Source: Terasakiella brassicae (lineage in GTDB: Bacteria > Pseudomonadota > Alphaproteobacteria > Rhodospirillales > Terasakiellaceae). Taken from it: a DNA stretch of 64,000 bases. Of the stretch, positions 1 through 11,703 are shown in pieces; positions within the stretch are counted from its first letter, which is position 1; the number at the start of each line of letters is the position of its first letter. The DNA lies in contig NZ_BMHV01000012.1 of the NCBI RefSeq assembly GCF_014641495.1, positions 62,001-126,000 on the forward strand. The letters are read 5' to 3'. A program made the translations under genes and the position numbers. The notes under the pieces are model-generated. The model saw only the letters and a program-made list of their open reading frames with translations. It ran no database searches and was not told where the DNA came from.

Positions 1-69
1 GATCATCCCCGCATTTGGACCGCAGAACGTGATGTCGAGATGTGGAAAGCACTCGAAGAAGTCGAATAA
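1..69 (+). CDS. C-terminal end of an unidentified gene
   Basis: An open frame enters from the left edge and ends with TAA at 67-69. It gives about 22 residues ending in WKALEEVE. The hemerythrin gene starts 38 bases downstream in the same direction, so the two may be co-transcribed. The fragment is too short to assign a family. Confidence 0.5.
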   Translation, partial: DHPRIWTAERDVEMWKALEEVE

Positions 70-107
70 AACGCATAACTGAAACGATTTTTGAATGGGG
101 GTCTGAC

Positions 108-701
108 ATGACCAAAGCCATTACTATTATGAAAAGAGAACACCTAAGCTTGAATACGGTCTTGCATGTTCTCAATCAACTTGTGCTGGATCTGGAATCG
201 GGACGTTTGCGTTCTGACGATGTTGATTATGAATTGATCGAAAAGATCATGCATTATATCGAGGAATTTCTCGATACCATGCATCATCCCAAAGAAGATA
301 ATTACCTTTTTCCGGCCTTGTTGAAAAAAACGTCCGAAGCCAATGATGTTATTCTGGAGCTTCAGGAACAGCATGAAAAAGGGGTGGAACACCGCAAACG
401 TTTGGAAGTTCATATTCAGGCGATGAAAGATAAACACCCCGGTCAGACCGAAAAGGTTATTGATGCCTTGAAAGACTATCTGGCAGCACACCGTGCACAT
501 ATGAAGCTGGAAGACACAGTCGTAATTCCGCTTGCCGAACGCGTTCTGACGGAAGAAGATTGGGCACCGATTGACGCGGCCTTTAATGAAAACAAGGATC
601 CTGTGTTTGGCGACATTCCGCAAAACAAGTTCCGCAAACTATTGTCCGATATTACTTTTCTTGCGCCTTCACCGATTGGATTAGGCGGAGGAAGAAAATA
701 G
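108..701 (+). CDS. Hemerythrin HHE-domain protein
   Basis: A cytoplasmic four-helix protein of about 198 residues that should bind a non-heme di-iron (oxo) centre, for oxygen or nitric-oxide binding or iron handling. The metal-ligand pattern is visible as KREH near residue 11, MHHPKEDNYLFP near 58-69, QEQHEKG near 86 and AHRAHMKLEDTVVIPLAE near 129-146. The C-terminal 50 residues extend beyond the domain and have no recognised motif. I prefer the ATG at 108 over an upstream GTG at 42 because a GGGGG run lies about 6 bases before it. A strong terminator follows, so this is the last gene of its unit. A second hemerythrin domain occurs on the chemoreceptor at 53,996. Confidence 0.85.
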   Translation: MTKAITIMKREHLSLNTVLHVLNQLVLDLESGRLRSDDVDYELIEKIMHYIEEFLDTMHHPKEDNYLFPALLKKTSEANDVILELQEQHEKGVEHRKRLEVHIQAMKDKHPGQTEKVIDALKDYLAAHRAHMKLEDTVVIPLAERVLTEEDWAPIDAAFNENKDPVFGDIPQNKFRKLLSDITFLAPSPIGLGGGRK

Positions 702-1607: not shown

Positions 1608-2912
1608 TCAATCCTTGGGCCGGATATCCGTTACCCGTTGCGCTTTGCCTTGTGAGCGTGGAATGGCACCGGGTTCCAGAACTTCGATTTTGGTTGAAAT
1701 ACCGATGTAGGATTTGATGTGATGGGACAGGTTCTTTTTAATGTCATCGTCGTTGTCCTGACCACTTTTATTGCGTTCGACCTGAACTTTCAGTTTATCC
1801 AGATGTCCGTCACGCGATAACACGAGATGATAGTGCGGGCTGAGGCGCGGATCACGTAGCACTTGTTCTTCGATCTGACTGGGGAAGACGTTGACGCCGC
1901 GAATAATCATCATATCATCCGAACGTCCGGTGATTTTGTCAAAACGCCGCATGGTGCGTGCAGTCCCCGGCAGCAAACGGGTTAAATCCTTGGTACGGTA
2001 ACGGAAAACCGGCATGGCTTCCTTGGTTAATGAGGTAAAGACCAGTTCGCCCATTGTGCCGTCTTCAACTGGATTGAAATTATCATCAACGACTTCGGGA
2101 TAGAAATGATCCTCCCAAATGGTCGGGCCGTCTTTGGTTTCCAGACATTCCTGTGCCACACCGGGGCCGATGACTTCGGACAGGCCGTAAATGTCCAGAC
2201 AGTCAATACCAAGGCGGCTTTCCATTTCATCGCGCATCTTGTTGGTCCAGGGTTCTGCCCCAAAGATTCCGCAGCGTAATTTAATGGCGCGAGGGTCCAG
2301 CCCTTGGCGTTCCATTTCATCGGCCAGAACAAGCATATAGGACGGTGTGACCATGATAACGTCAGGGTCGAAATCGCGGATCAACTGAACCTGTTTTTCG
2401 GTTTGCCCGCCGGACATGGGAATGACGGTACAACCCAGTTCTTCTGCCCCGTAATGTGCACCTAACCCCCCTGTAAACAAGCCGTAACCATAAGCAACAT
2501 GGACCCGGTCACTATGATTAACGCCTGCAGCGCGCAGAGAACGTGCAACCACACCGGCCCAGACTTTCAAGTCTTGTTTGGTATAGCCTACAACGGTTGG
2601 TTTCCCGGTCGTGCCAGAGGAAGCATGAACGCGCACAATGGATTCCATCGGGACAGCGAAACTGCTGAACGGATAAGCCTTGCGTAAATCTTCTTTGGTG
2701 GTAAAGGGGAATTTTTTAAGATCGTCCAGATGCTTCAGGTCATCGGGGTGGACCTGCGCATCCACACATTTCGCGCGATAATATGAAACGTTGTTATAGG
2801 CATGGTCCAGTGACCATTTCATGCGTTTGAATTGCAGCGAGCGCAGCTCATCCACGCTTGCCTTTTCGATAGGGTCGAGTTCCCCGAGTAAAGGGATATC
2901 CGTATGTTGCAT
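1608..2912 (-). CDS. paaK: Phenylacetate-CoA ligase
   Basis: An AMP-forming ligase that activates phenylacetate to phenylacetyl-CoA, the entry step of the aerobic hybrid pathway. At 434 residues it matches the family length. The adenylate-forming signature VHASSGTTGKPTVVGYT lies near residues 95-111, YGLSE near 242, and the C-terminal hinge and AMP-binding domain contain FDKITGRSDDMMIIRGVNVFPSQIEEQ. A strong ribosome site (GGGAGGAA) precedes the ATG. It is the last gene of the leftward paa operon, 67 bases after paaJ, and is followed by a clear terminator. The family also contains ligases for related aryl acids, so substrate identity rests mainly on the neighbouring paa genes. Confidence 0.95.
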   Translation of the reverse strand: MQHTDIPLLGELDPIEKASVDELRSLQFKRMKWSLDHAYNNVSYYRAKCVDAQVHPDDLKHLDDLKKFPFTTKEDLRKAYPFSSFAVPMESIVRVHASSGTTGKPTVVGYTKQDLKVWAGVVARSLRAAGVNHSDRVHVAYGYGLFTGGLGAHYGAEELGCTVIPMSGGQTEKQVQLIRDFDPDVIMVTPSYMLVLADEMERQGLDPRAIKLRCGIFGAEPWTNKMRDEMESRLGIDCLDIYGLSEVIGPGVAQECLETKDGPTIWEDHFYPEVVDDNFNPVEDGTMGELVFTSLTKEAMPVFRYRTKDLTRLLPGTARTMRRFDKITGRSDDMMIIRGVNVFPSQIEEQVLRDPRLSPHYHLVLSRDGHLDKLKVQVERNKSGQDNDDDIKKNLSHHIKSYIGISTKIEVLEPGAIPRSQGKAQRVTDIRPKD

Positions 2913-2979: not shown

Positions 2980-4185
2980 TTATATGCGTTCGATGATGGT
3001 GGCGATGCCTTGACCGACACCGATACACATGGTGCACAGGGCATAACGCCCTTTGCGGCGTTCCAGTTCATAAAGGGCGGTGGTGATTAGACGCGCCCCA
3101 CTCATCCCCAAGGGGTGACCCAAGGCAATGGCCCCGCCATTGGGGTTGACGTGTTCGGCATCATCTGCCACACCGAGTTCACGCAGAACAGCCAAGCCCT
3201 GTGAGGCAAAGGCTTCGTTCAGTTCGATCACGTCCATATCCTTGATGGACAGACCGGCTTTTTCCAGAACTTTCTGTGAGGCGGGCGCTGGACCGATCCC
3301 CATAATGCGCGGCTCTACTCCGGCGGTTGCCATTGCGACAACGCGGGCGCGCGGCTTCAACCCCAATTCGCTTGCTTTTTCTTCGGACGCCAATAACAAG
3401 GCACAGGCCCCGTCATTCACGCCGGAGGCATTGCCCGCTGTAACACTACCGCCATCGCGAAACGGGGCCCGTAAGCCTGCCAATGTTTCCAGCGTGGTAT
3501 CGGCACGCGGGTGCTCATCCGTATCAACGATTTTTGGATCACCTTTGCGCTGAGGAATGGTGACAGGGCAAATTTCTTCTGCCAGTCGGCCTGCATCCTG
3601 TGCGGCTTTGGTCTTTTGTTGGGATCGTAAGGCAAAGGCATCTTGATCTGCGCGGGTGATGTTGAAATCTTCGGCGACATTTTCTGCCGTTTCGGGCATG
3701 GAGTCCGTGCCGTATTGTTTTTCCATCAGTTTATTGACGAAGCGCCAGCCAATGGTGGTGTCATAAACCGCATTGGCGCGGGAAAATGCGGTTTCTGCCT
3801 TGGGCATGACAAAAGGGGCACGCGACATGCTTTCCACACCACCGGCAATCATAAGTTCACAATCACCAGCCTTGATAGAGCGTGCAGCCAATCCGACAGC
3901 ATCCATACCGGATCCACACAAACGATTGACTGTTGTACCCGGAACTGTCGTGGGCAAACCAGCCAGCAAGGCGGACATGCGCGCAACGTTGCGGTTGTCT
4001 TCGCCTGCCTGATTGGCGCAGCCATAAATCACATCATCAATCGTGGACCAGTCAACGGTTTGGTTACGCGACATCAACGCTTTCATGGGGATCGCCCCCA
4101 GATCATCGGCACGGACTTTGGACAAGCTGCCGCCATAACGTCCAATCGGGGTGCGGATGGCATCAATAATGTAAGCTTCACTCAT
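2980..4185 (-). CDS. paaJ: 3-oxoadipyl-CoA / 3-oxo-5,6-dehydrosuberyl-CoA thiolase
   Basis: A thiolase that cleaves the two beta-ketoacyl-CoA intermediates of phenylacetate breakdown, releasing acetyl-CoA and finally succinyl-CoA. At 401 residues it matches PcaF/PaaJ. The nucleophile Cys90 sits in [13 protein letters not shown], the conserved His in [16 protein letters not shown], and the second Cys in [10 protein letters not shown] near the C-terminus. Its ATG overlaps the paaI stop by 4 bases (ATGA), so the two are translationally coupled, and a GAGGAAA ribosome site is present. PcaF of the protocatechuate pathway is nearly indistinguishable. The paa context favours PaaJ. Confidence 0.93.
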
Positions 4186-4631
4186 TTTTTTGTTTCCTCT
4201 GTGTCCGGGATCAACTGTCCCGAAATCGTTCTTGATCGTCCCCTAAACAGGGCAACAATGGTGCCGTCCTGTTTGGTAATTGTGATGTCATAGATGCCTG
4301 AACGTTCCATCAGAATAGTTTCCTTGGCCACGGCTGTCAGAATATCGCCTTCATGGCTGGGGGCGCTGTAGGTGATGTCGCAGCCAGAGGCCACGGTGAC
4401 TTTGTTATAGGTGTTGCAGGCATAGGCAAAAGCTGTATCGGCCAAGGCAAAGGTCGCCCCGCCGTGGGTCATGGCATGACCGTTGAGCATATCTTTACGC
4501 ACGGTCATAGTGGCCTTGGCATATCCCGGTGCAATCTCGGTGATCTTAATCCCCATGGATTGGGCCATGTGATCATTTGGGTACATGACATCGACAGAGG
4601 CCTGCGCCCATTTTTGTGCTGTCTCAGTCAT
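4182..4631 (-). CDS. paaI: Hydroxyphenylacetyl-CoA thioesterase
   Basis: A hotdog-fold thioesterase of 149 residues. PaaI enzymes hydrolyse dead-end ring-hydroxylated phenylacetyl-CoA species and free the CoA. The motif [20 protein letters not shown] holds the catalytic Gly/His and Asp segment. The longer open frame to 4727 runs into paaH, so the ATG at 4629-4631 ([10 protein letters not shown]) is preferred. It overlaps the paaH stop by 8 bases in the usual order paaH-paaI-paaJ. It overlaps paaJ by 4 bases at the other end. Confidence 0.93.
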
Positions 4632-6162
4632 GGAAATATTTCCCCGTATTGACTTTGCGCCGCAGGAGGATGGAGGTCCGATAACGGTCTTCGCCATAGG
4701 TCCGTCCCATATTTTCAATGACGGCACTGATATAATCCGGCCCGATTTCGTCTGCCCAAGCCAATGGGCCTTTCGGATAATTCACACCCTTTTGCATGGC
4801 AAGGTCCACGTCTGTGACGCTGCAAACTTGTTTGTGAACAGTATCTGCGGCTTCGTTGATGATCATGGCGACAGTGCGTGCCACAATCAGACCGGGGATA
4901 TCGTCCAGAACGCTGACGTCAATCCCTAAAGATTGAAACAGGCCGCAAGCCTCCGCCACATGTTCTTCGTCTGCGGTGTCGGACGGGGCAATGGTGATGC
5001 GTGTGGTTTTTGCGTAATCAATAGCAAGGTCAAACAGCACAAGGGCCTCGTTTTCTTCCATGATCATGGAGGCTTCCAGCTCGCTTGCCAGCATACCCGG
5101 TGTCAGCATTAAATGCGTATGCCCGACAATAATGCGGTCCACCATGCTGTCTTGGTCATCAATGCGTTCGACATCCAGTCCGGCCTTGATCATGCGTTCC
5201 ACCAGAACTTCGGCGGGACCAAGATCGCCTTCAACAATGATCTTGGACGGCTTTAAGCCTTTATCTGCGTTATGGGGCCCGGCTTTGGGGACGTTATCGC
5301 CATATTCGTAAAAACCACGGCCGGATTTGCGACCCAAAAGACCGCCATCAACCAGTTCCTTTTGAATAAGGGATGGCAGAAAGCGGGGATCGTTATAAAA
5401 TTGCCCCCATGTAGTCAGTGTGACGGCATAGTTTACATCCAGACCAATCAAGTCCATCAGTTCAAACGGTCCCATGCGAAATCCGCCAACGTCTTTTAAG
5501 GCCGTGTCGATGGTGGCAATGTCTGCGCCACCTTCTTCAAGGACACGTAAAGCTTCTGCGTAAAAAGGGCGCGCCACACGGTTGACGATAAAGCCCGGTG
5601 TGGATTTGGCATGAACCGGTTTTTTACCCCAAGACAGACTCGTTTCGTAAACGCAATCAGCAACTTCTTTTGCAGTTGTCAGGCCGGAAATAACCTCAAC
5701 CAATTGCATGATCGGTGCAGGATTGAAGAAGTGCATACCGACCAAGCGATTGGATCGTTTCAGTTTTGCACCAATTGCTGTTAATGAAATGGATGACGTA
5801 TTAGAAGCCATAATGGTGTCGGCAGAACAGATATCTTCCAACTGAGCAAAGACGTTTTGTTTAATGTCCAGATTTTCAACAATGGCTTCGATGACCAGTT
5901 TGGCCGGGGCCAGATCACTGAGGTTCTCAACGATCTGGATACGCGAAAGTAAATCATCGACATCGGGTTGGGACATTTTGCCTTTTTCAACAAGGCGGTT
6001 TAGTCCCTTGGCGGTTTTGTCTTTACCCGATTGGGCTGCGCCGTGCTGGGCGTCAAACAGCAAGACAGGATGCCCGGCTTTGGCGGCAACCTGAGCAATT
6101 CCGGCCCCCATTGTGCCGGCACCGATGACGGCAACAGTATCTGATGTGGAAAGGGCAGCCAT
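4624..6162 (-). CDS. paaH: 3-hydroxyadipyl-CoA dehydrogenase
   Basis: An NAD-dependent 3-hydroxyacyl-CoA dehydrogenase that oxidises 3-hydroxyadipyl-CoA to the 3-keto form just before thiolysis. The 512-residue protein has an N-terminal Rossmann fold (VIGAGTMGAGIAQVAAKAGH at about 13-32), the conserved NTSSISLT and HFFNPAPIMQLVEV segments, and the 3HCDH C-terminal domain with TPGFIVNRVARPF. A second, diverged 3HCDH domain follows (residues about 300-505, with IVARTVAMIINEAADTV). This two-module layout is typical of PaaH. It lies 2 bases after paaG and overlaps paaI by 8 bases. Confidence 0.94.
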   Translation of the reverse strand: MAALSTSDTVAVIGAGTMGAGIAQVAAKAGHPVLLFDAQHGAAQSGKDKTAKGLNRLVEKGKMSQPDVDDLLSRIQIVENLSDLAPAKLVIEAIVENLDIKQNVFAQLEDICSADTIMASNTSSISLTAIGAKLKRSNRLVGMHFFNPAPIMQLVEVISGLTTAKEVADCVYETSLSWGKKPVHAKSTPGFIVNRVARPFYAEALRVLEEGGADIATIDTALKDVGGFRMGPFELMDLIGLDVNYAVTLTTWGQFYNDPRFLPSLIQKELVDGGLLGRKSGRGFYEYGDNVPKAGPHNADKGLKPSKIIVEGDLGPAEVLVERMIKAGLDVERIDDQDSMVDRIIVGHTHLMLTPGMLASELEASMIMEENEALVLFDLAIDYAKTTRITIAPSDTADEEHVAEACGLFQSLGIDVSVLDDIPGLIVARTVAMIINEAADTVHKQVCSVTDVDLAMQKGVNYPKGPLAWADEIGPDYISAVIENMGRTYGEDRYRTSILLRRKVNTGKYFHD

Positions 6163-6164
6163 TG

Positions 6165-6956
6165 TTATTTACCTGTGAAGTTCGGTTTGCGTTTTTCCAA
6201 AAAGGCGCTGACACCTTCTTTATAATCTTCACTGAACCCGGCGAGTTTTTGCAGGTCGCGTTCCAGATCAAGTTGTTCATCCATCGTATTGGTCGGGGCG
6301 GCATTTAGGGCCCGTTTGATCAATCCCAACCCCAATGTCGGTTGTTGGGCGAGGTGGAGACAAAGTTCCTCGGTGGTTTCGTTTAAGGCATCGTCATCGA
6401 CACATTTCCAGATCATGCCCCATTCTTCGGCTTGGGTTGCACTGATTTTTTCACCCAGCAAGGCCAAGGCTTTGGCGCGTGCCATGCCGACCAGATTGGG
6501 CAGGCTCCAGGTGCCGCCGCTATCGGGGATCAGGCCGATTTTACAGAAAGCTTGAATGAAACTGGCACGTTCTGCGGCATAGACGATGTCACAGGCAAGG
6601 GCGATATTGGCCCCTGCACCCGCAGCGACACCATTGACAGCGCAGACAACAGGTTTTTCGATGGACTGGATGAGGCGGATCAACGGGTTATAAAACTTCT
6701 CAATGGTTTGGGATAAATCGCGCGGTCCTTCATCGCCTTGTACGGCACGATCGCCCAAATCCTGTCCGGCACAAAAACCACGCCCGGCGGCGGTCAGCAA
6801 AATGGCGCGTACGGTGTCGTCTTTTTGGCAGTCTTTTAAGGTATCACGCAATTCAACATGCATGGTTTCGTTAAAACTGTTGAGCACATCGGGGCGGTTC
6901 AACGTGATTTTGGCGTAGCCGTCTTTCTTTTCAAACAGGATGGTTTCTAAGGTCAT
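6165..6956 (-). CDS. paaG: 1,2-epoxyphenylacetyl-CoA isomerase
   Basis: A crotonase-fold enzyme of 263 residues that converts the ring epoxide of phenylacetyl-CoA to oxepin-CoA and later shifts a double bond. It starts METILFEKKDGYAKITLNRPDVLNSFN-like, with the oxyanion-hole segments GRGFCAGQDLGDRA and NGVAAGAGANIALACD and the IGLIPDSGGTWSLP loop. Because the window has no canonical epoxidase subunits, PaaG is the best evidence that the ring-epoxide route is used. Gene spacing is 5 bases from paaF and 2 bases to paaH. Confidence 0.92.
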   Translation of the reverse strand: MTLETILFEKKDGYAKITLNRPDVLNSFNETMHVELRDTLKDCQKDDTVRAILLTAAGRGFCAGQDLGDRAVQGDEGPRDLSQTIEKFYNPLIRLIQSIEKPVVCAVNGVAAGAGANIALACDIVYAAERASFIQAFCKIGLIPDSGGTWSLPNLVGMARAKALALLGEKISATQAEEWGMIWKCVDDDALNETTEELCLHLAQQPTLGLGLIKRALNAAPTNTMDEQLDLERDLQKLAGFSEDYKEGVSAFLEKRKPNFTGK

Positions 6957-6961
6957 TGTTC

Positions 6962-7765
6962 TTAGCGTCCCTTAAATACAGGTTTTCGTTTTTCCATGAA
7001 GGCGGCAACGCCTTCGGCTTTGTCTTCGGTGGCAAACAAGGTGCCAAAGGCTTTGCGCTCAAACGCCAGCCCTTCAGCGAGAAGAGCGTCAGAGGCTTTG
7101 AGTACGGATTCTTTTGCTAAACGTGCCGCAACAGGCGGTTTGGACGCTATCACACAGGCAAGGGCGTAGGCCTTGTCATATGTCAGTTCCGGTTCACACA
7201 CTTCTGCGACCAGTCCGGCTTTTTCAGCGTCCTCAGCCGACATGAATTGCGCGGCAAGGACCATACGCATGGCTTTTGATTTTCCAATCATTTGGGTGAG
7301 GCGTTGCGTTCCGCCCGCACCGGGAATGATGCCGAGGTTAATTTCCGGTTGCCCAAATTGGGCGTTTTTTCCGGCAATCAGGATATCGCAATGCATTGCC
7401 AATTCATTCCCACCGCCCAGACAAAAACCATTGACGGCCCCGATCAGGGGTTTGTTAAAGGTCCGAATGGCAGCCCAATGATCGGCGCGCGGATCGTTCA
7501 AAACATCGACAGGGGTTTTATCTGCCATTTCCGTAATGTCGGCACCGGCGGCAAAGACTTTTTCACCACCGGTTAAAACAACACAGCGCACATGTTCGTC
7601 ACGGTTTGCTTTGCCAAGGGTTTGTGCAAGTTCGTGCAGTAATTGCGTACGCAAGGCATTGCGTGCCTTCGGTCGGTTCAGGCGAAGGCTCAGGACATAT
7701 TTATCATCCAGTTCAGATAAAATATCTGTGCATCCATCCAGATAGGGGGCGTGAGGATTAGCCAA
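6962..7765 (-). CDS. paaF: 2,3-dehydroadipyl-CoA hydratase (enoyl-CoA hydratase)
   Basis: A crotonase-family hydratase of 267 residues that adds water to 2,3-dehydroadipyl-CoA. The catalytic Glu-bearing segments are NGFCLGGGNELAMHCD and INLGIIPGAGGTQRL, both as in true hydratases. It opens the compact block paaF-paaG-paaH-paaI-paaJ-paaK. A 65-base gap separates it from the PaaA/C-like gene and contains a copy of the shared regulatory motif, so paaF may have its own promoter. General short-chain enoyl-CoA hydratases look alike. The assignment rests on gene order. Confidence 0.9.
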   Translation of the reverse strand: MANPHAPYLDGCTDILSELDDKYVLSLRLNRPKARNALRTQLLHELAQTLGKANRDEHVRCVVLTGGEKVFAAGADITEMADKTPVDVLNDPRADHWAAIRTFNKPLIGAVNGFCLGGGNELAMHCDILIAGKNAQFGQPEINLGIIPGAGGTQRLTQMIGKSKAMRMVLAAQFMSAEDAEKAGLVAEVCEPELTYDKAYALACVIASKPPVAARLAKESVLKASDALLAEGLAFERKAFGTLFATEDKAEGVAAFMEKRKPVFKGR

Positions 7766-7830: not shown

Positions 7831-8598
7831 CTAACAGCGCGCTTCCAGTCCGATTCTGGCGAGTTGTTCTGCCATGCGGCTTTCCCACTTTGCCAGCAGA
7901 TCGGCGTTGGCTGTTTTACGCAGGCCATAGGCTTTGTCCTGTTCAAAACGTTGCGAATCGCTTTTGCCGAATGTGGCGGCGACACGCGGATACCAGTAAT
8001 CGACACTGGCTTGTGCCGCTTCCAGACTATAACCGTTTTCGATGGCTTTTTGCAGGCCTTTGCGCCCCAATTCGGCATGTTCGGCCTCACGTGCGGCAAT
8101 CTCGCCCATGACAGCAACCAGCGGGGCGTAGGAACAATGGGTCAGTTCTTCAAGCTGGATGGAAGAGGCAAGGCCCATCAACATGTTCATCACAACGGAG
8201 TCGAGCCAGCCTTCAAAGGGGTAGTGAAAAACGTTCAAACGTTTGTCCCCACCAATGCGGCGGTTGCCCAGATCAATGGTACGTGACAGACGCGCATCCC
8301 ACGGATGAGACTGAACGTAAAGGTCTGTATTTACACTAAAATCTTCCAAAAGGGTCAGCGCCTGCTGGGCATGGTCAAACTTTTCGGACACGATACGCGC
8401 AGCGGTGCAGCGTTCGCGCATTCCCGGTGCTTTGTTGATGGTATCGACAAAGCCTGCGGCACCAGCCAGTTCAGAATCGACAAAAGCCACGAGCAAACGG
8501 CGCAGTTCCCCGCGATAGCCCGGCGTCAGTTCATCGGTTGACATAAGTTTTTCGTTGTTGGCAATGCGGGCAAGCAATGCATCATCTGTCTTGGACAT
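7831..8598 (-). CDS. PaaA/PaaC-like ferritin-fold protein (putative oxygenase component)
   Basis: A 255-residue all-helical protein that I place in the PaaA_PaaC family, which contains the catalytic and structural subunits of phenylacetyl-CoA epoxidase. Candidate iron ligands are Glu43 (FVDSELAG), Glu72 with His76 (VSEKFDHAQ), Glu150/151 (QLEELTH), and Glu171-x2-His174 (REAEHAELG). The second ExxH is intact. The first is shifted: the Glu is four, not three, residues before His, and Lys sits at the usual Glu position. Normally paaA is followed by B, C, D and E. Here it stands alone at the head of the paa operon, opposite a flavodoxin. It could be a reduced epoxidase, a PaaC-like structural subunit, or an oxygenase for another aryl-CoA. 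The start is supported by a GGGGAGAGGAA stretch. Confidence 0.7.
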   Translation of the reverse strand: MSKTDDALLARIANNEKLMSTDELTPGYRGELRRLLVAFVDSELAGAAGFVDTINKAPGMRERCTAARIVSEKFDHAQQALTLLEDFSVNTDLYVQSHPWDARLSRTIDLGNRRIGGDKRLNVFHYPFEGWLDSVVMNMLMGLASSIQLEELTHCSYAPLVAVMGEIAAREAEHAELGRKGLQKAIENGYSLEAAQASVDYWYPRVAATFGKSDSQRFEQDKAYGLRKTANADLLAKWESRMAEQLARIGLEARC

Positions 8599-8653
8599 AT
8601 TCTTCCTCTCCCCTTGGCAAAAGGTATTTTCAATTTGTGCCTTGTTTCGTCTT

Positions 8654-8705
8654 CTAAAAAATAATGTGATACAAAACTAGACAACTTTATATAAATTTAG
8701 TATCA
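8654..8705. promoter_or_regulatory. Putative paa operator copy 2 in the divergent promoter region
   Basis: The 243-base gap between the leftward PaaA/C-like gene and the rightward flavodoxin gene is A/T-rich. It holds AAAATAATGTGATACAAAA within 8654-8676, a one-mismatch copy of the site before paaF. TGATAC (8667-8672) is repeated in inverted form as GTATCA (8700-8705), 27 bases apart, which would suit a regulator controlling both directions. Confidence 0.5.
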
Positions 8706-8841
8706 AAAAAATTAGAAACATTCAAACATTAATGTTAAAAGAAAAAGGGCCGATCCTTATATAGATGTGTACGCAAGGCAAAAAAGCCATCTTTTATCTA
8801 GGGATCATGCAGGGTTAAACAAAGAAGAACGAGTGTAAGAA

Positions 8842-9291
8842 ATGACAAGCATCGCGATATTCGTAGGAACAGAATCGGGAAATGCCCAGATGGTGGCGGA
8901 GGCGCTGAATGATGAATTGTCGCGTCTGGACCATGATGTAGAGATCATCGAGGATTTTGACGACGGATGCGCTGTGCTGGAAGGACATGACACCATCATC
9001 ATCAGTTGTTCAACGCATGGACTGGGGGAACTGCCCGATAATATTATTCCCTTGTTTGAGGCCATGAAAGAAAACACACCCGATTTGTCCAGCGTGAAAT
9101 ATGGCATTATCGCACTGGGCGATCAGACTTATTCCGATACGTTCTGCAAAGCGGGCAAGGATATGGACGCTGCTTTTGCTGCCTGTGGGGCAAAACGGGT
9201 GGGGGATCGTCTGGAAGTGGACGCCTGCACGCAACCGTTGCCCGATGAAGAAGCAATTGAATGGGTCAAGGAATGGCTTGATCTTCTGTAA
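8842..9291 (+). CDS. Flavodoxin (MioC-like), putative electron donor
   Basis: A 149-residue FMN-binding flavodoxin. The phosphate-binding loop is FVGTESGNAQMVAE at residues 6-19. The later FMN-contacting segments are SCSTHGLGELPDN and ALGDQTYSDTFC. It is the size of MioC and lacks a reductase domain, so it would carry electrons between a separate reductase and an acceptor. Its placement opposite the PaaA/C-like gene and 55 bases ahead of paaN suggests that it serves the ring-oxidation step instead of the usual PaaE ferredoxin-type reductase. That role is an inference. Confidence 0.85.
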   Translation: MTSIAIFVGTESGNAQMVAEALNDELSRLDHDVEIIEDFDDGCAVLEGHDTIIISCSTHGLGELPDNIIPLFEAMKENTPDLSSVKYGIIALGDQTYSDTFCKAGKDMDAAFAACGAKRVGDRLEVDACTQPLPDEEAIEWVKEWLDLL

Positions 9292-9346: not shown

Positions 9347-11005
9347 ATGAGCCTCGAGCTTTTTGAACGTCATCAGGAAAAACTGGATCAAGCCTGTGCC
9401 GCAGCACGTTCACGTGGATATTGGTCCGCTTATAAAGAAATGCCCAGCCCGCGCGTTTATGGCGAGAGTGCACAGAATGACGGGATCAAGGCTTTTCAAT
9501 CTCATTTGGGCAAAGCCTTTGAAATCGACCAGCCGCACAACGGCACGACCAAAGGGTCAGAAGACGGCCCGTTCGGTGTGACGTTTGATATTGATTATCC
9601 GGCACCTGATGTAAATGCGATGATGACAGCAGCCAAAGCGGCGATACCTGCATGGCGTAAATTGGGGCCAAAAGGGCGCGCCGGTGTGTGCATGGAAGTG
9701 CTGGAACGTCTGAATGCCAGAAGTTTCGAGATTGCGTTTTCCGTTATGCACACCACAGGTCAAGCCTTTATGATGGCTTTTCAGGCCGGTGGGGCGCATG
9801 CGCAAGACCGGGGGCTGGAGGCTGTTGCCTATGGCTATGATGAAATGATGCGTCACCCGGAAACAGCCGATTGGGTCAAGCCACAGGGCAAGAATGATCC
9901 GTTGGAAATGAAAAAGAAATTTACCGCTGTCGGGCGTGGTGTTGCCTTGATGGTCGGTTGTGCGACGTTCCCGACATGGAATGGCTATCCCGGTTTGTTT
10001 GCTTCTTTGGTGACCGGGAACGCCGTCATTGTCAAACCGCATCCGCGCGCTGTTTTGCCCTTGGCAATTACGGTGCGTGTTATTCGTGATGTGCTCAGCG
10101 AAGTCGGGATTGATCCCAATTTGGTTTGTTTGGCGGTGGATACGCTGGAAGCACCGATCACGAAGGAATTTGCCACACATCCCGATACCAAAATTATTGA
10201 TTTCACCGGGTCCAGCGAATTTGGTAACTGGTTGGAAGATAATTGTAAGCAAGCCCAAGTCTATACGGAAAAAGCCGGGGTCAATGCGATTATTATTGAT
10301 GATTTTGATGATATCAAAGGGATTGCACGCAATTTGTCTTTCACGTTCAGCCTGTATTCCGGGCAAATGTGTACGACCCCGCAAAATATCTTCATCCCCA
10401 AAGGCGGCATTGATGTAAATGGCGAGAACATGAGCTTTGATGACGTTGCCAAAGCCATTGCCACAGGTGTTGAAAAATTCCTGTCTGTGCCGGAACGCGC
10501 GGTTGAGGTTTTAGGCACTATTCAGAATAAAGCGATTTTAGACCGTATGGAACAGGCCAAGGGATTGGGTGAAGTGGTCTTGGATACCACGCAAATCGAT
10601 CACCCGATGTTCAAAGGTATTCAATGCCATACGCCGGTGATTGTGAAGCTGAACGGGGACGAGATTGATAAATACAGTGAAGAACTGTTTGGCCCCATTG
10701 TCTTTGTGATTGCAACGGAAGATACAGCCGACAGTATCCAGAAAATGCGCAAAACTATTTCGGAACATGGTGCGATTACATTGGGCATGTATTCCAAAAA
10801 CGAAGACGTGATTGCACAGGTGGAAGAAGCTGCGCTGGAGGCAGGTGTCAACCTGTCCATCAACTTGACGGGGGGCGTGTTTGTCAACCAGTCAGCCGCA
10901 TTTTCTGATTTCCATGCGACCGGTGCAAACCCGGCGGCGAATGCGGCCCTGACGGATGGGAATTTTGTATCGGGGCGTTTCCGTGTGATGCAAAGCCGTC
11001 GTTAA
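9347..11005 (+). CDS. paaN: Phenylacetate degradation aldehyde dehydrogenase PaaN
   Basis: A 552-residue aldehyde dehydrogenase-superfamily protein matching the stand-alone PaaN type, proposed for ring cleavage and oxidation. In E. coli PaaZ this activity is fused to a MaoC-type hydratase. Seen here are VGCATFPTWNGYPGLFASL (cofactor loop), IIDFTGSSEFGNWLE near residue 285, the Cys-bearing YSGQMCTTPQNIF near 341, and ELFGPIVFVI near 447. The C-terminus ends in RFRVMQSRR with no hydratase domain, so the oxepin-CoA hydrolase activity must come from elsewhere. The ATG follows AGGAAA. A terminator separates it from paaY. Confidence 0.9.
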   Translation: MSLELFERHQEKLDQACAAARSRGYWSAYKEMPSPRVYGESAQNDGIKAFQSHLGKAFEIDQPHNGTTKGSEDGPFGVTFDIDYPAPDVNAMMTAAKAAIPAWRKLGPKGRAGVCMEVLERLNARSFEIAFSVMHTTGQAFMMAFQAGGAHAQDRGLEAVAYGYDEMMRHPETADWVKPQGKNDPLEMKKKFTAVGRGVALMVGCATFPTWNGYPGLFASLVTGNAVIVKPHPRAVLPLAITVRVIRDVLSEVGIDPNLVCLAVDTLEAPITKEFATHPDTKIIDFTGSSEFGNWLEDNCKQAQVYTEKAGVNAIIIDDFDDIKGIARNLSFTFSLYSGQMCTTPQNIFIPKGGIDVNGENMSFDDVAKAIATGVEKFLSVPERAVEVLGTIQNKAILDRMEQAKGLGEVVLDTTQIDHPMFKGIQCHTPVIVKLNGDEIDKYSEELFGPIVFVIATEDTADSIQKMRKTISEHGAITLGMYSKNEDVIAQVEEAALEAGVNLSINLTGGVFVNQSAAFSDFHATGANPAANAALTDGNFVSGRFRVMQSRR

Positions 11006-11091: not shown

Positions 11092-11703
11092 ATGTCCATG
11101 TCCCCAAAAGTTTATGAAATTGACGGTATCGTGCCGGTGATTGATGAAACCGCCTTTGTTCATCCTGATGCGGTTTTGATCGGGGATGTGATTGTGGGTC
11201 CCGGTGTTTATGTCGGTCCTGCCTGTTGTTTGCGTGGCGATTTCGGTCGGTTGGTTCTGGAAGAAGGCTCAAACATTCAGGATACTTGCGTGATGCATGG
11301 TTTTCCCGGCACTGATACGGTGGTGAAGAAAAACGGACACATCGGTCATGGAGCCGTCTTACATGGCTGTGTCGTGGGCGAAGACGCGCTGGTGGGTATG
11401 AATGCGGTGATTATGGATGGGGCCGAAATTGGACCACAATGTATTGTGGCGGCTTCTGCCTTTGTACGTGCGGGATTAAAGTTTGATAAGCGATCTTTGA
11501 TTGGCGGGGTTCCTGCCAAAGTCATGCGGCAAGTCACTGACGAAGAATTTGCATGGAAACGTGCGGGAACGAAGGAATATCAGGACTTGGCAATCCGTTC
11601 GCTCAAAACCATGAAACCGGCAACGGCCTTGCGCGAAGTTGAAGAAAACCGCGCCCGTATGCCCAGCGGGGGTGTGAAGCCTTTGTTTGAGACTAAAGGC
11701 TAA
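11092..11703 (+). CDS. paaY: PaaY thioesterase, gamma-carbonic-anhydrase fold
   Basis: A 203-residue left-handed beta-helix protein with hexapeptide repeats (residues about 20-140, e.g. [30 protein letters not shown]). PaaY is a thioesterase that rescues CoA from dead-end phenylacetate intermediates. It belongs to the gamma-carbonic-anhydrase-like transferase fold, and metal-type His residues occur in [12 protein letters not shown]. The C-terminal [26 protein letters not shown] segment is typical of the group. It is convergent with the amidotransferase gene and overlaps its tail by 11 bases. The start has an AGGAGTA ribosome site. Confidence 0.9.

Follow-up and report, generated by a model that had tools for sequence, protein, structure and literature searches.

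A PaaA-like protein pair and a flavodoxin in the phenylacetate gene set of Terasakiella brassicae

Which enzyme oxygenates the aromatic ring of phenylacetyl-coenzyme A (phenylacetyl-CoA) in Terasakiella brassicae? The question is raised by a 64,000-nucleotide stretch of its genome (the window, G000:C12:62001-126000, from a draft of 3.64 Mb in 83 contigs with a completeness of 99.7%), in which a cluster of phenylacetate (paa) genes contains one 255-residue protein of the PaaA/PaaC family, P0001, and a divergently encoded flavodoxin. Ring oxygenation is the key step in aerobic phenylacetate catabolism, and the consulted passages of PMC4498308 and PMC9493321 assign it to PaaABC(D)E. An earlier note on this DNA had described P0001 as a lone protein that could be a compact, flavodoxin-driven oxygenase, with a complete epoxidase elsewhere in the genome as the alternative. 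Our comparisons point to a conserved gene module that, taken as a whole, is likely to perform ring oxygenation in strains without PaaB. That P0001 is a component of this noncanonical aerobic ring oxygenase working without PaaB and PaaE, as the partner of a second family member, P0002, is the reading we favor, with a somewhat lower degree of confidence.

The missing epoxidase genes and the second locus

The two open reading frames described earlier, P0001 and the flavodoxin facing it (P0005), are both present. P0001 scored 78.6 bits against PF05138 (PaaA_PaaC, gathering cut-off 28.5) and stayed far under the cut-offs of the PaaA equivalog TIGR02156 (58.5 bits, cut-off 280) and the PaaC equivalog TIGR02158 (20.6 bits, cut-off 133.35). 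The 149-residue flavodoxin matched PF00258 (E 3e-26) and, under their cut-offs, NF005989 (146.6 bits, cut-off 160) and MioC (135.1 bits, cut-off 158), in agreement with its description as MioC-like.

The genome-wide search yielded no match to the PaaB model TIGR02157 at E 0.1 and, for PaaE, nothing better than 138.6 bits, under the cut-off of 420.8, which extends the absence of these subunits from the window to the genome. Exactly two PF05138 members are encoded in the whole genome, namely P0001 and the 274-residue P0002 (G000:C12:54960-55784), which lies 14 kilobases (kb) from P0001 and 6.2 kb beyond the window and scored 83.5 bits against TIGR02156. P0001 is thus alone inside the window and not in the genome, and the idea of a complete epoxidase elsewhere in this genome is contradicted. 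Since there are only two PF05138 proteins and no PaaB or PaaE above cut-off, yet PaaK, G, J, I, N, and X are present above cut-off (with F-, H-, and Y-like proteins below), the resulting hole in the pathway supports the favored reading.

Downstream of P0002 follow the 133-residue P0003, which has no family, and a branched-chain-type ATP-binding cassette (ABC) transporter. Divergent to P0002 are paaX (319.1 bits, above cut-off) and, overlapping it by 4 bases, the reading frame of a 424-residue reductase with matches to FprA and adrenodoxin reductase (E 3e-75). This arrangement was counted over 33 P0002 loci, each from a separate genome (one P0002 genome, G318, was omitted for its contig edge; G302 and G307 have no P0002; G308 was entered as L041). 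P0003 lies 3′ of P0002 on the same strand in 33/33 loci, PaaX is divergent in 28/33, and so is FprA in 28/33. A relationship of P0003 with PaaB was rejected, as the hhalign comparison of 33 P0003 with 45 PaaB rows gave a probability of 0.65%; in Pfam, P0003 had sub-cut-off matches only (SrfA, E 0.0037; MIT, E 0.013). A P0002-like remnant with 51-58% identity, split in two and interrupted by stops, was observed at G125:C27:17760-18221 (L052); that genome has no other close P0002 match.

The P0001 alignment, used to scan the collection of genomes, returned 338 relatives, and all locus and residue counts below use the best 80 of these 338, with only family matches above 45 bits counted in locus annotation. 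P0001 faces a flavodoxin in 34 of the 80 loci, which answers the earlier proposal to examine conservation of the pair, and lies directly behind paaE in 45, so that the neighbor is an electron donor gene in 79/80. The remaining locus (L105), at a contig end, shows neither gene and was placed in the flavodoxin setting on account of the P0002 in its genome and a matching residue 119. At L111, a flavodoxin and paaABCDE are both nearby. In the paaE-type loci, paaA is also visible in 42/45, the other three being cut by contig ends; the alternative of a complete canonical epoxidase is therefore true of this sister clade. One example is PDEN_RS23920 of Paracoccus denitrificans PD1222 (NC_008688.1 301596-302348, L218), a P0001 relative situated between paaE and paaZ, whose PF05138 gene bears just the generic annotation "Phenylacetic acid catabolic protein" although the strain is tractable in the laboratory. 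In three oceanospirilla, the P0001-flavodoxin pair is present twice (L070/L072, L071/L074, L075/L079); one pair of Marinobacterium (L070) and Pontibacterium (L074) is near P0002, while the other pair sits in the lower-pathway cluster.

Genome-wide searches covered all 32 genomes of the flavodoxin setting, including the contig-end case, and 11 genomes from the 45 paaE-type loci. P0002 (79-98% identical) occurred in 30/32 of the former and 0/11 of the latter (Fisher p = 1.4e-8). PaaB showed the opposite distribution, with 7/32 against 11/11 (one of the 11 a fragment under cut-off), as did PaaE matches at E 1e-60, with 8/32 against 11/11. Seven of the eight PaaE matches in the flavodoxin setting were above cut-off and belong to the same seven genomes that have PaaB; 8 of the 11 paaE-type matches were above cut-off. 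Among the 25 PaaB-less flavodoxin-setting genomes, none (0/25) had PaaE above cut-off and 23 had P0002. Among named relatives, the three closest (L065 Terasakiella pusilla, L066, and L067) have neither PaaB nor PaaE at E 1e-60, and T. pusilla DSM 6293 is the nearest by P0001 (87% identity).

A draw of 289 genomes across the class, made without regard to P0001, contained P0002 in 5 including our own; all five carry a P0001 orthologue and 0/5 carry PaaB, which was present in 32/289. A sixth P0001 orthologue of this draw (G148) sits behind a complete paaABCDE. A phylum-wide draw contained P0001 relatives in 10/398 genomes (E 1e-40) and P0002 in our own genome only (E 1e-50), and therefore adds only the rarity of P0002. 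Among plasmids, 195 records matched P0001 and 178 matched P0002, all below 60% identity (the 20 listed of the 178 at 25-30%), and the search with P0003 gave no match.

The two halves of the gene set share a putative operator. Words of 7 and 8 bases common to the P0001/flavodoxin and paaX/P0002 intergenic regions build the dyad TGAYAC-N27..29-GTRTCA, which was found exactly, with spacers of 26-30, in 14/34 and 12/28 of these regions, respectively. When up to one mismatch was allowed, the counts rose to 31/34 and 27/28, compared with 0.3 on average and at most 2 in 40 mononucleotide shuffles. In our genome, the exact N27 form occurs at three sites, comprising both promoter regions and C54:4102-4140, and the copy between P0001 and the flavodoxin gene is its sole exact match within the window. 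The spacing is that of the PaaX box TGATTC-N27-GAATCA given in the consulted part of PMC9493321, and PaaX would be the protein that binds it. Together with the conserved gene content, the shared box supports the module reading. The third site (G000:C54:4102-4140, L205/L208) lies about 250 bases before the gene of a 541-residue acyl-CoA synthetase, best matched by MbcS (523.9 bits, under the cut-off of 850) and perhaps an outlying member of this regulon.

Iron-site residues, fold, and descent

The iron ligands of E. coli PaaA are Glu42, Glu72, His75, Asp126, Glu155, and His158, according to the part of PMC4498308 consulted. P0001 was aligned beside the references with 15 PaaA, 15 PaaC, and 4 P0002 rows, and the counts were then repeated on all rows. 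In the alignment to E. coli PaaA, P0001 keeps four of the six ligands, with E43, H76, E171, and H174 present in 78, 79, 80, and 80 of the 80 relatives. The position of Glu72 is occupied by K73 (78/80, R in 2) and that of Asp126 by G142 (76/80). The ExxH at 171-174 and the E72-x3-H76 described earlier are both there, although it is K73 that aligns with Glu72 of PaaA. E43Q and K73R occur together in both Amphritea copies and H76S in Oceanospirillum, in genomes that also carry PaaB; the paired substitution suggests contact between E43 and K73.

P0001 also retains the PaaA-like substrate-loop motif, with V123, H125, Y126, and P127 in 80/80 and F124 in 77/80. Besides E171 and H174, the residues R103, R106, R114, D118, R120, and Y126 are invariant (80/80). 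Residue 119 separates the two settings, being K in 35/35 of the flavodoxin setting and M in 45/45 of the paaE setting. The loop around PaaA K103 is kept in P0001 and is a gap in 15/15 aligned PaaC rows. Of the six ligand positions, PaaC keeps D101 and H133 (44/44 rows) and not the other four. P0002 keeps five of the six PaaA ligands (E32, E62, H65, E157, and H160, invariant in 33/33), along with a lysine, K58, in 33/33. By this comparison, P0002 is the better catalytic candidate.

AlphaFold2 models had a mean predicted local distance difference test score (pLDDT) of 91.8 for P0001 (56 rows) and 86.8 for P0002 (38 rows), and by Foldseek E-value PaaA was nearest to both. The template modeling score (TM) over the query reached 0.84 with PaaA for P0001, where the best PaaA chain had 0.83, and 0.76 for P0002, followed by 0.77 and 0.66 with 4mud, 0.74 and 0.68 with BoxB, and 0.69 and 0.68 with PaaC. 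Alignment and modeling against PaaA and PaaC, proposed in the earlier note, thus gave a PaaA-like fold with four ligands kept and two lost. The tree included every second P0002 row and every third PaaA and PaaC row, 9/24 other class-scan loci passed the filter, and L105 was labeled paaE-type. P0001 and P0002 stood apart from PaaA and PaaC, with Shimodaira-Hasegawa-like approximate likelihood ratio test (SH-aLRT) support of 84 and 100, respectively, a placement that carries a long-branch warning. The 16 PaaC rows formed their own clade (SH-aLRT 100) with P0001 outside, and the 45 paaE-type relatives were one clade inside P0001 (SH-aLRT 99). Score, tree, and site residues rule out P0001 as a PaaC orthologue, and as judged from these comparisons it qualifies neither as an intact PaaA nor as a degraded PaaC. 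A further PF05138 lineage of the class (L014, L018, L023, L024) was separate from PaaA, PaaC, P0001, and P0002.

Compared with PaaABC(D)E, the gene set has the same pathway genes and PaaX, a box of the published PaaX spacing, and two PF05138 proteins with PaaA as best structural match. It differs in that 25/32 flavodoxin-setting genomes have neither PaaB nor PaaE above cut-off (one with a sub-cut-off PaaE-like match), and the 133-residue orphan, the flavodoxin, and an FprA-type reductase (28/33 loci) are found instead. P0001 resembles the PaaC subunit in its ferritin-like fold and as a second PF05138 protein next to a catalytic one, but PaaC holds only D101 and H133, whereas P0001 holds E43, H76, E171, H174, and the loop. 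SSO1313 of Sulfolobus (4mud), the best Protein Data Bank sequence match of P0001, differs from it in keeping both ExxH motifs in the alignment. The benzoyl-CoA epoxidase BoxAB likewise acts on an aryl-CoA with a di-iron site and, according to the consulted part of PMC4498308, draws on a separate reductase, which is not copurified. BoxB is a fair structural match to P0001, better than PaaC; however, it is monomeric with about 470 residues, BoxA carries two [4Fe-4S] clusters, and PaaA surpasses BoxB as the match for both P0001 and P0002. The flavodoxin matched cindoxin (4oxx, E 1e-17). In the cindoxin/P450cin system, a flavodoxin is the redox partner of an oxygenase, although it serves a P450 and not a ferritin-fold iron enzyme.

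Candidate reaction scheme and competing explanations

In the scheme we favor, phenylacetyl-CoA would lift PaaX, which would control both halves of the gene set. Electrons would pass from reduced nicotinamide adenine dinucleotide phosphate (NADPH) via the FprA-type reductase and the flavodoxin to the iron center of P0002, the putative catalytic subunit, which would convert phenylacetyl-CoA to the 1,2-epoxide to be taken on by PaaG. P0001 would most likely be the partner subunit of P0002, offering docking for electron transfer or handling substrate, and P0003, for which no relation to PaaB could be detected, may be a further subunit. Of the earlier proposal, a flavodoxin-linked oxygenation step in place of PaaABCE is supported by conserved genes and the box, while the compact single protein is not, because two ligands are lost and P0002 is better equipped.

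Several observations weigh against this scheme. P0002 has Thr128 at the position of the PaaA ligand Asp126 in 33/33 and lacks the FxYP loop motif of PaaA, which P0001 retains. The clade of P0001 relatives directly behind paaE makes up 45/80 loci, seven genomes of the flavodoxin setting additionally encode PaaB and PaaE, and Marinobacterium arenosum, without PaaB, has a PaaE match of 276.9 bits, under cut-off. P0002 is missing from two flavodoxin-setting metagenome-assembled genomes (L081, L089), FprA is not adjacent to P0002 in 5/33 loci, among them L201, which stops at a contig edge, and the class-wide draw by itself does not support mutual exclusion of P0002 and PaaB (Fisher p = 1). The box was derived from the very regions in which it was counted, it is one base off the published PaaX box in each half-site, and with up to one mismatch our genome holds 19 sites, compared with 4 when the pattern is reversed. 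TGATTC-N20..32-GAATCA did not turn up in the K-12 paa region retrieved for comparison, so the published N27 consensus is taken from the citation of PMC9493321 alone. Biochemical or growth data on the module were not found.

The partner role of P0001 is the weakest step and is uncertain because its sister clade accompanies complete PaaABCDE. As that clade sits behind paaE in canonical clusters, P0001 is not simply a substitute for PaaC; its relatives beside PaaABCE indicate an ability to serve a different epoxidase or to act alongside one. A less probable explanation, though the most serious competitor, is that P0001 is a separate acyl-CoA-binding paa enzyme serving whichever epoxidase is present, whose substrate might be the epoxide, oxepin, or a shunt product, with P0002 and P0003 alone as the oxygenase. 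The relatives directly behind paaE, as in the paaE-paaZ gap of P. denitrificans, their single clade, and the invariant E171, H174, R103, R106, R114, D118, R120, and Y126 would fit such an enzyme, and so would PaaC, the known structural partner, in holding just D101 and H133. P0001 nevertheless has no known reaction, occurs together with P0002 in 30/32 flavodoxin-setting genomes, and adjoins an electron donor gene in nearly every locus. Improbable, in our estimate, is a second class of aerobic phenylacetyl-CoA oxygenase, driven by NADPH, FprA, and flavodoxin, in which the lysine-substituted site of P0001 is functional and of a kind recruited beside PaaE in canonical operons. Such a site may hold a single metal, or may be metal-free and flavodoxin-activated. 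An analogy is the R2 protein of class Ie ribonucleotide reductase, which is metal-free and activated by the flavodoxin-type NrdI.

The proposal of the earlier note, with P0001 alone as the catalytic flavodoxin-driven phenylacetyl-CoA oxygenase, draws on the flavodoxin that adjoins it in 34/35 loci without a paaE neighbor (the other being the contig end), the four widely kept ligands with a PaaA-like F-x-Y-P loop, and a model that fits PaaA (TM up to 0.84) over PaaC (up to 0.69). We regard it as very unlikely, as two ligands are replaced by Lys73 and Gly142, the joint E43Q/K73R change in Amphritea suggests a salt bridge and not metal coordination, and the companion P0002 has the better site. 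Equally unlikely is a module that acts on another aryl-CoA, such as a ring-hydroxylated phenylacetyl-CoA, with the phenylacetate pathway supplementary or inactive. Substrates could indeed differ in the seven genomes that combine the module with PaaB and PaaE, and the third PaaX-like box precedes a further acyl-CoA synthetase; however, PaaK is above its phenylacetate-specific cut-off, paaX faces P0002 in 28/33 loci, and 25/32 genomes have neither PaaB nor PaaE above cut-off. A canonical paaABCDE operon missing from the assembly is conceivable in a draft of 83 contigs, but is made exceedingly improbable by its completeness and by T. pusilla and the two other close relatives (L065-L067), which likewise have neither PaaB nor PaaE at E 1e-60.

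Gene layout and significance

The paa genes of the window are listed in Table 1. Downstream of P0001, paaF, G, H, I, J, and K follow in this order on the same strand, and the flavodoxin gene is followed by paaN and paaY. The PaaN of the window is an aldehyde dehydrogenase only. No PaaZ was seen among the genes examined, with no genome-wide PaaZ search made, and the consulted part of PMC9007349 also discusses the oxepin-CoA hydrolase gap in such bacteria. At window positions 42-701 (+), a hemerythrin-type protein is encoded beside branched-chain-type transporter genes, an arrangement conserved in L175-L177, which are Terasakiella-like, and less strongly in L200.

Table 1. Features of the phenylacetate cluster, with positions counted from the first base of the window
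Feature	Position	Strand	Remarks
paaK	1608..2912	-	679 bits, above cut-off 646.3
paaJ / 3-oxoadipyl-CoA thiolase	2980..4185	-	735.4 bits, above cut-off
paaI	4182..4727	-	147.6 bits, above cut-off; listed GTG start overlaps paaH, real start probably internal
paaH	4624..6162	-	668.6 bits, cut-off 669.4
paaG	6165..6956	-	417.6 bits, above cut-off
paaF-like enoyl-CoA hydratase	6962..7765	-	343.3 bits, cut-off 371; downstream of P0001
P0001, 255-residue PF05138 protein	7831..8598	-	subject of the earlier note; site residues E43, K73, H76, G142, E171, H174
PaaX-like box TGATAC-N27-GTATCA	8667..8705		between P0001 and flavodoxin genes
Flavodoxin, 149 residues, MioC-like	8842..9291	+	divergent from P0001
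paaN	9347..11005	+	TIGR02288, 834.6 bits, above cut-off; 3′ of flavodoxin gene
paaY-like	11092..11703	+	305.7 bits, cut-off 319.6

The module is conserved and apparently has no published description. None was found among the best-ranked matches in titles, abstracts, and passages of the open literature, a scope that takes in the parts seen of PMC9765128, PMC2653477, PMC9007349, and PMC2770484, with PMC8632152 and PMC8230428, in which flavodoxin occurs alongside paa terms, lying outside it. In a 2026 survey (PMC13186573, consulted in part), the final filter retained ligases near PaaABCDE, some paralogous copies excepted; PaaA and PaaC were reported in all 825 proteomes, and the word flavodoxin is absent from the main text. 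Bacteria that possess the module only would therefore be invisible to such a filter.

For this key step of aerobic phenylacetate catabolism, the module supplies a testable gene set, a candidate regulator box, and two isolates, T. pusilla DSM 6293 and M. arenosum CAU 1594. It raises the questions of how a PaaA-like enzyme may work without PaaE and what role the PF05138 gene behind paaE plays in Rhizobium and Paracoccus.

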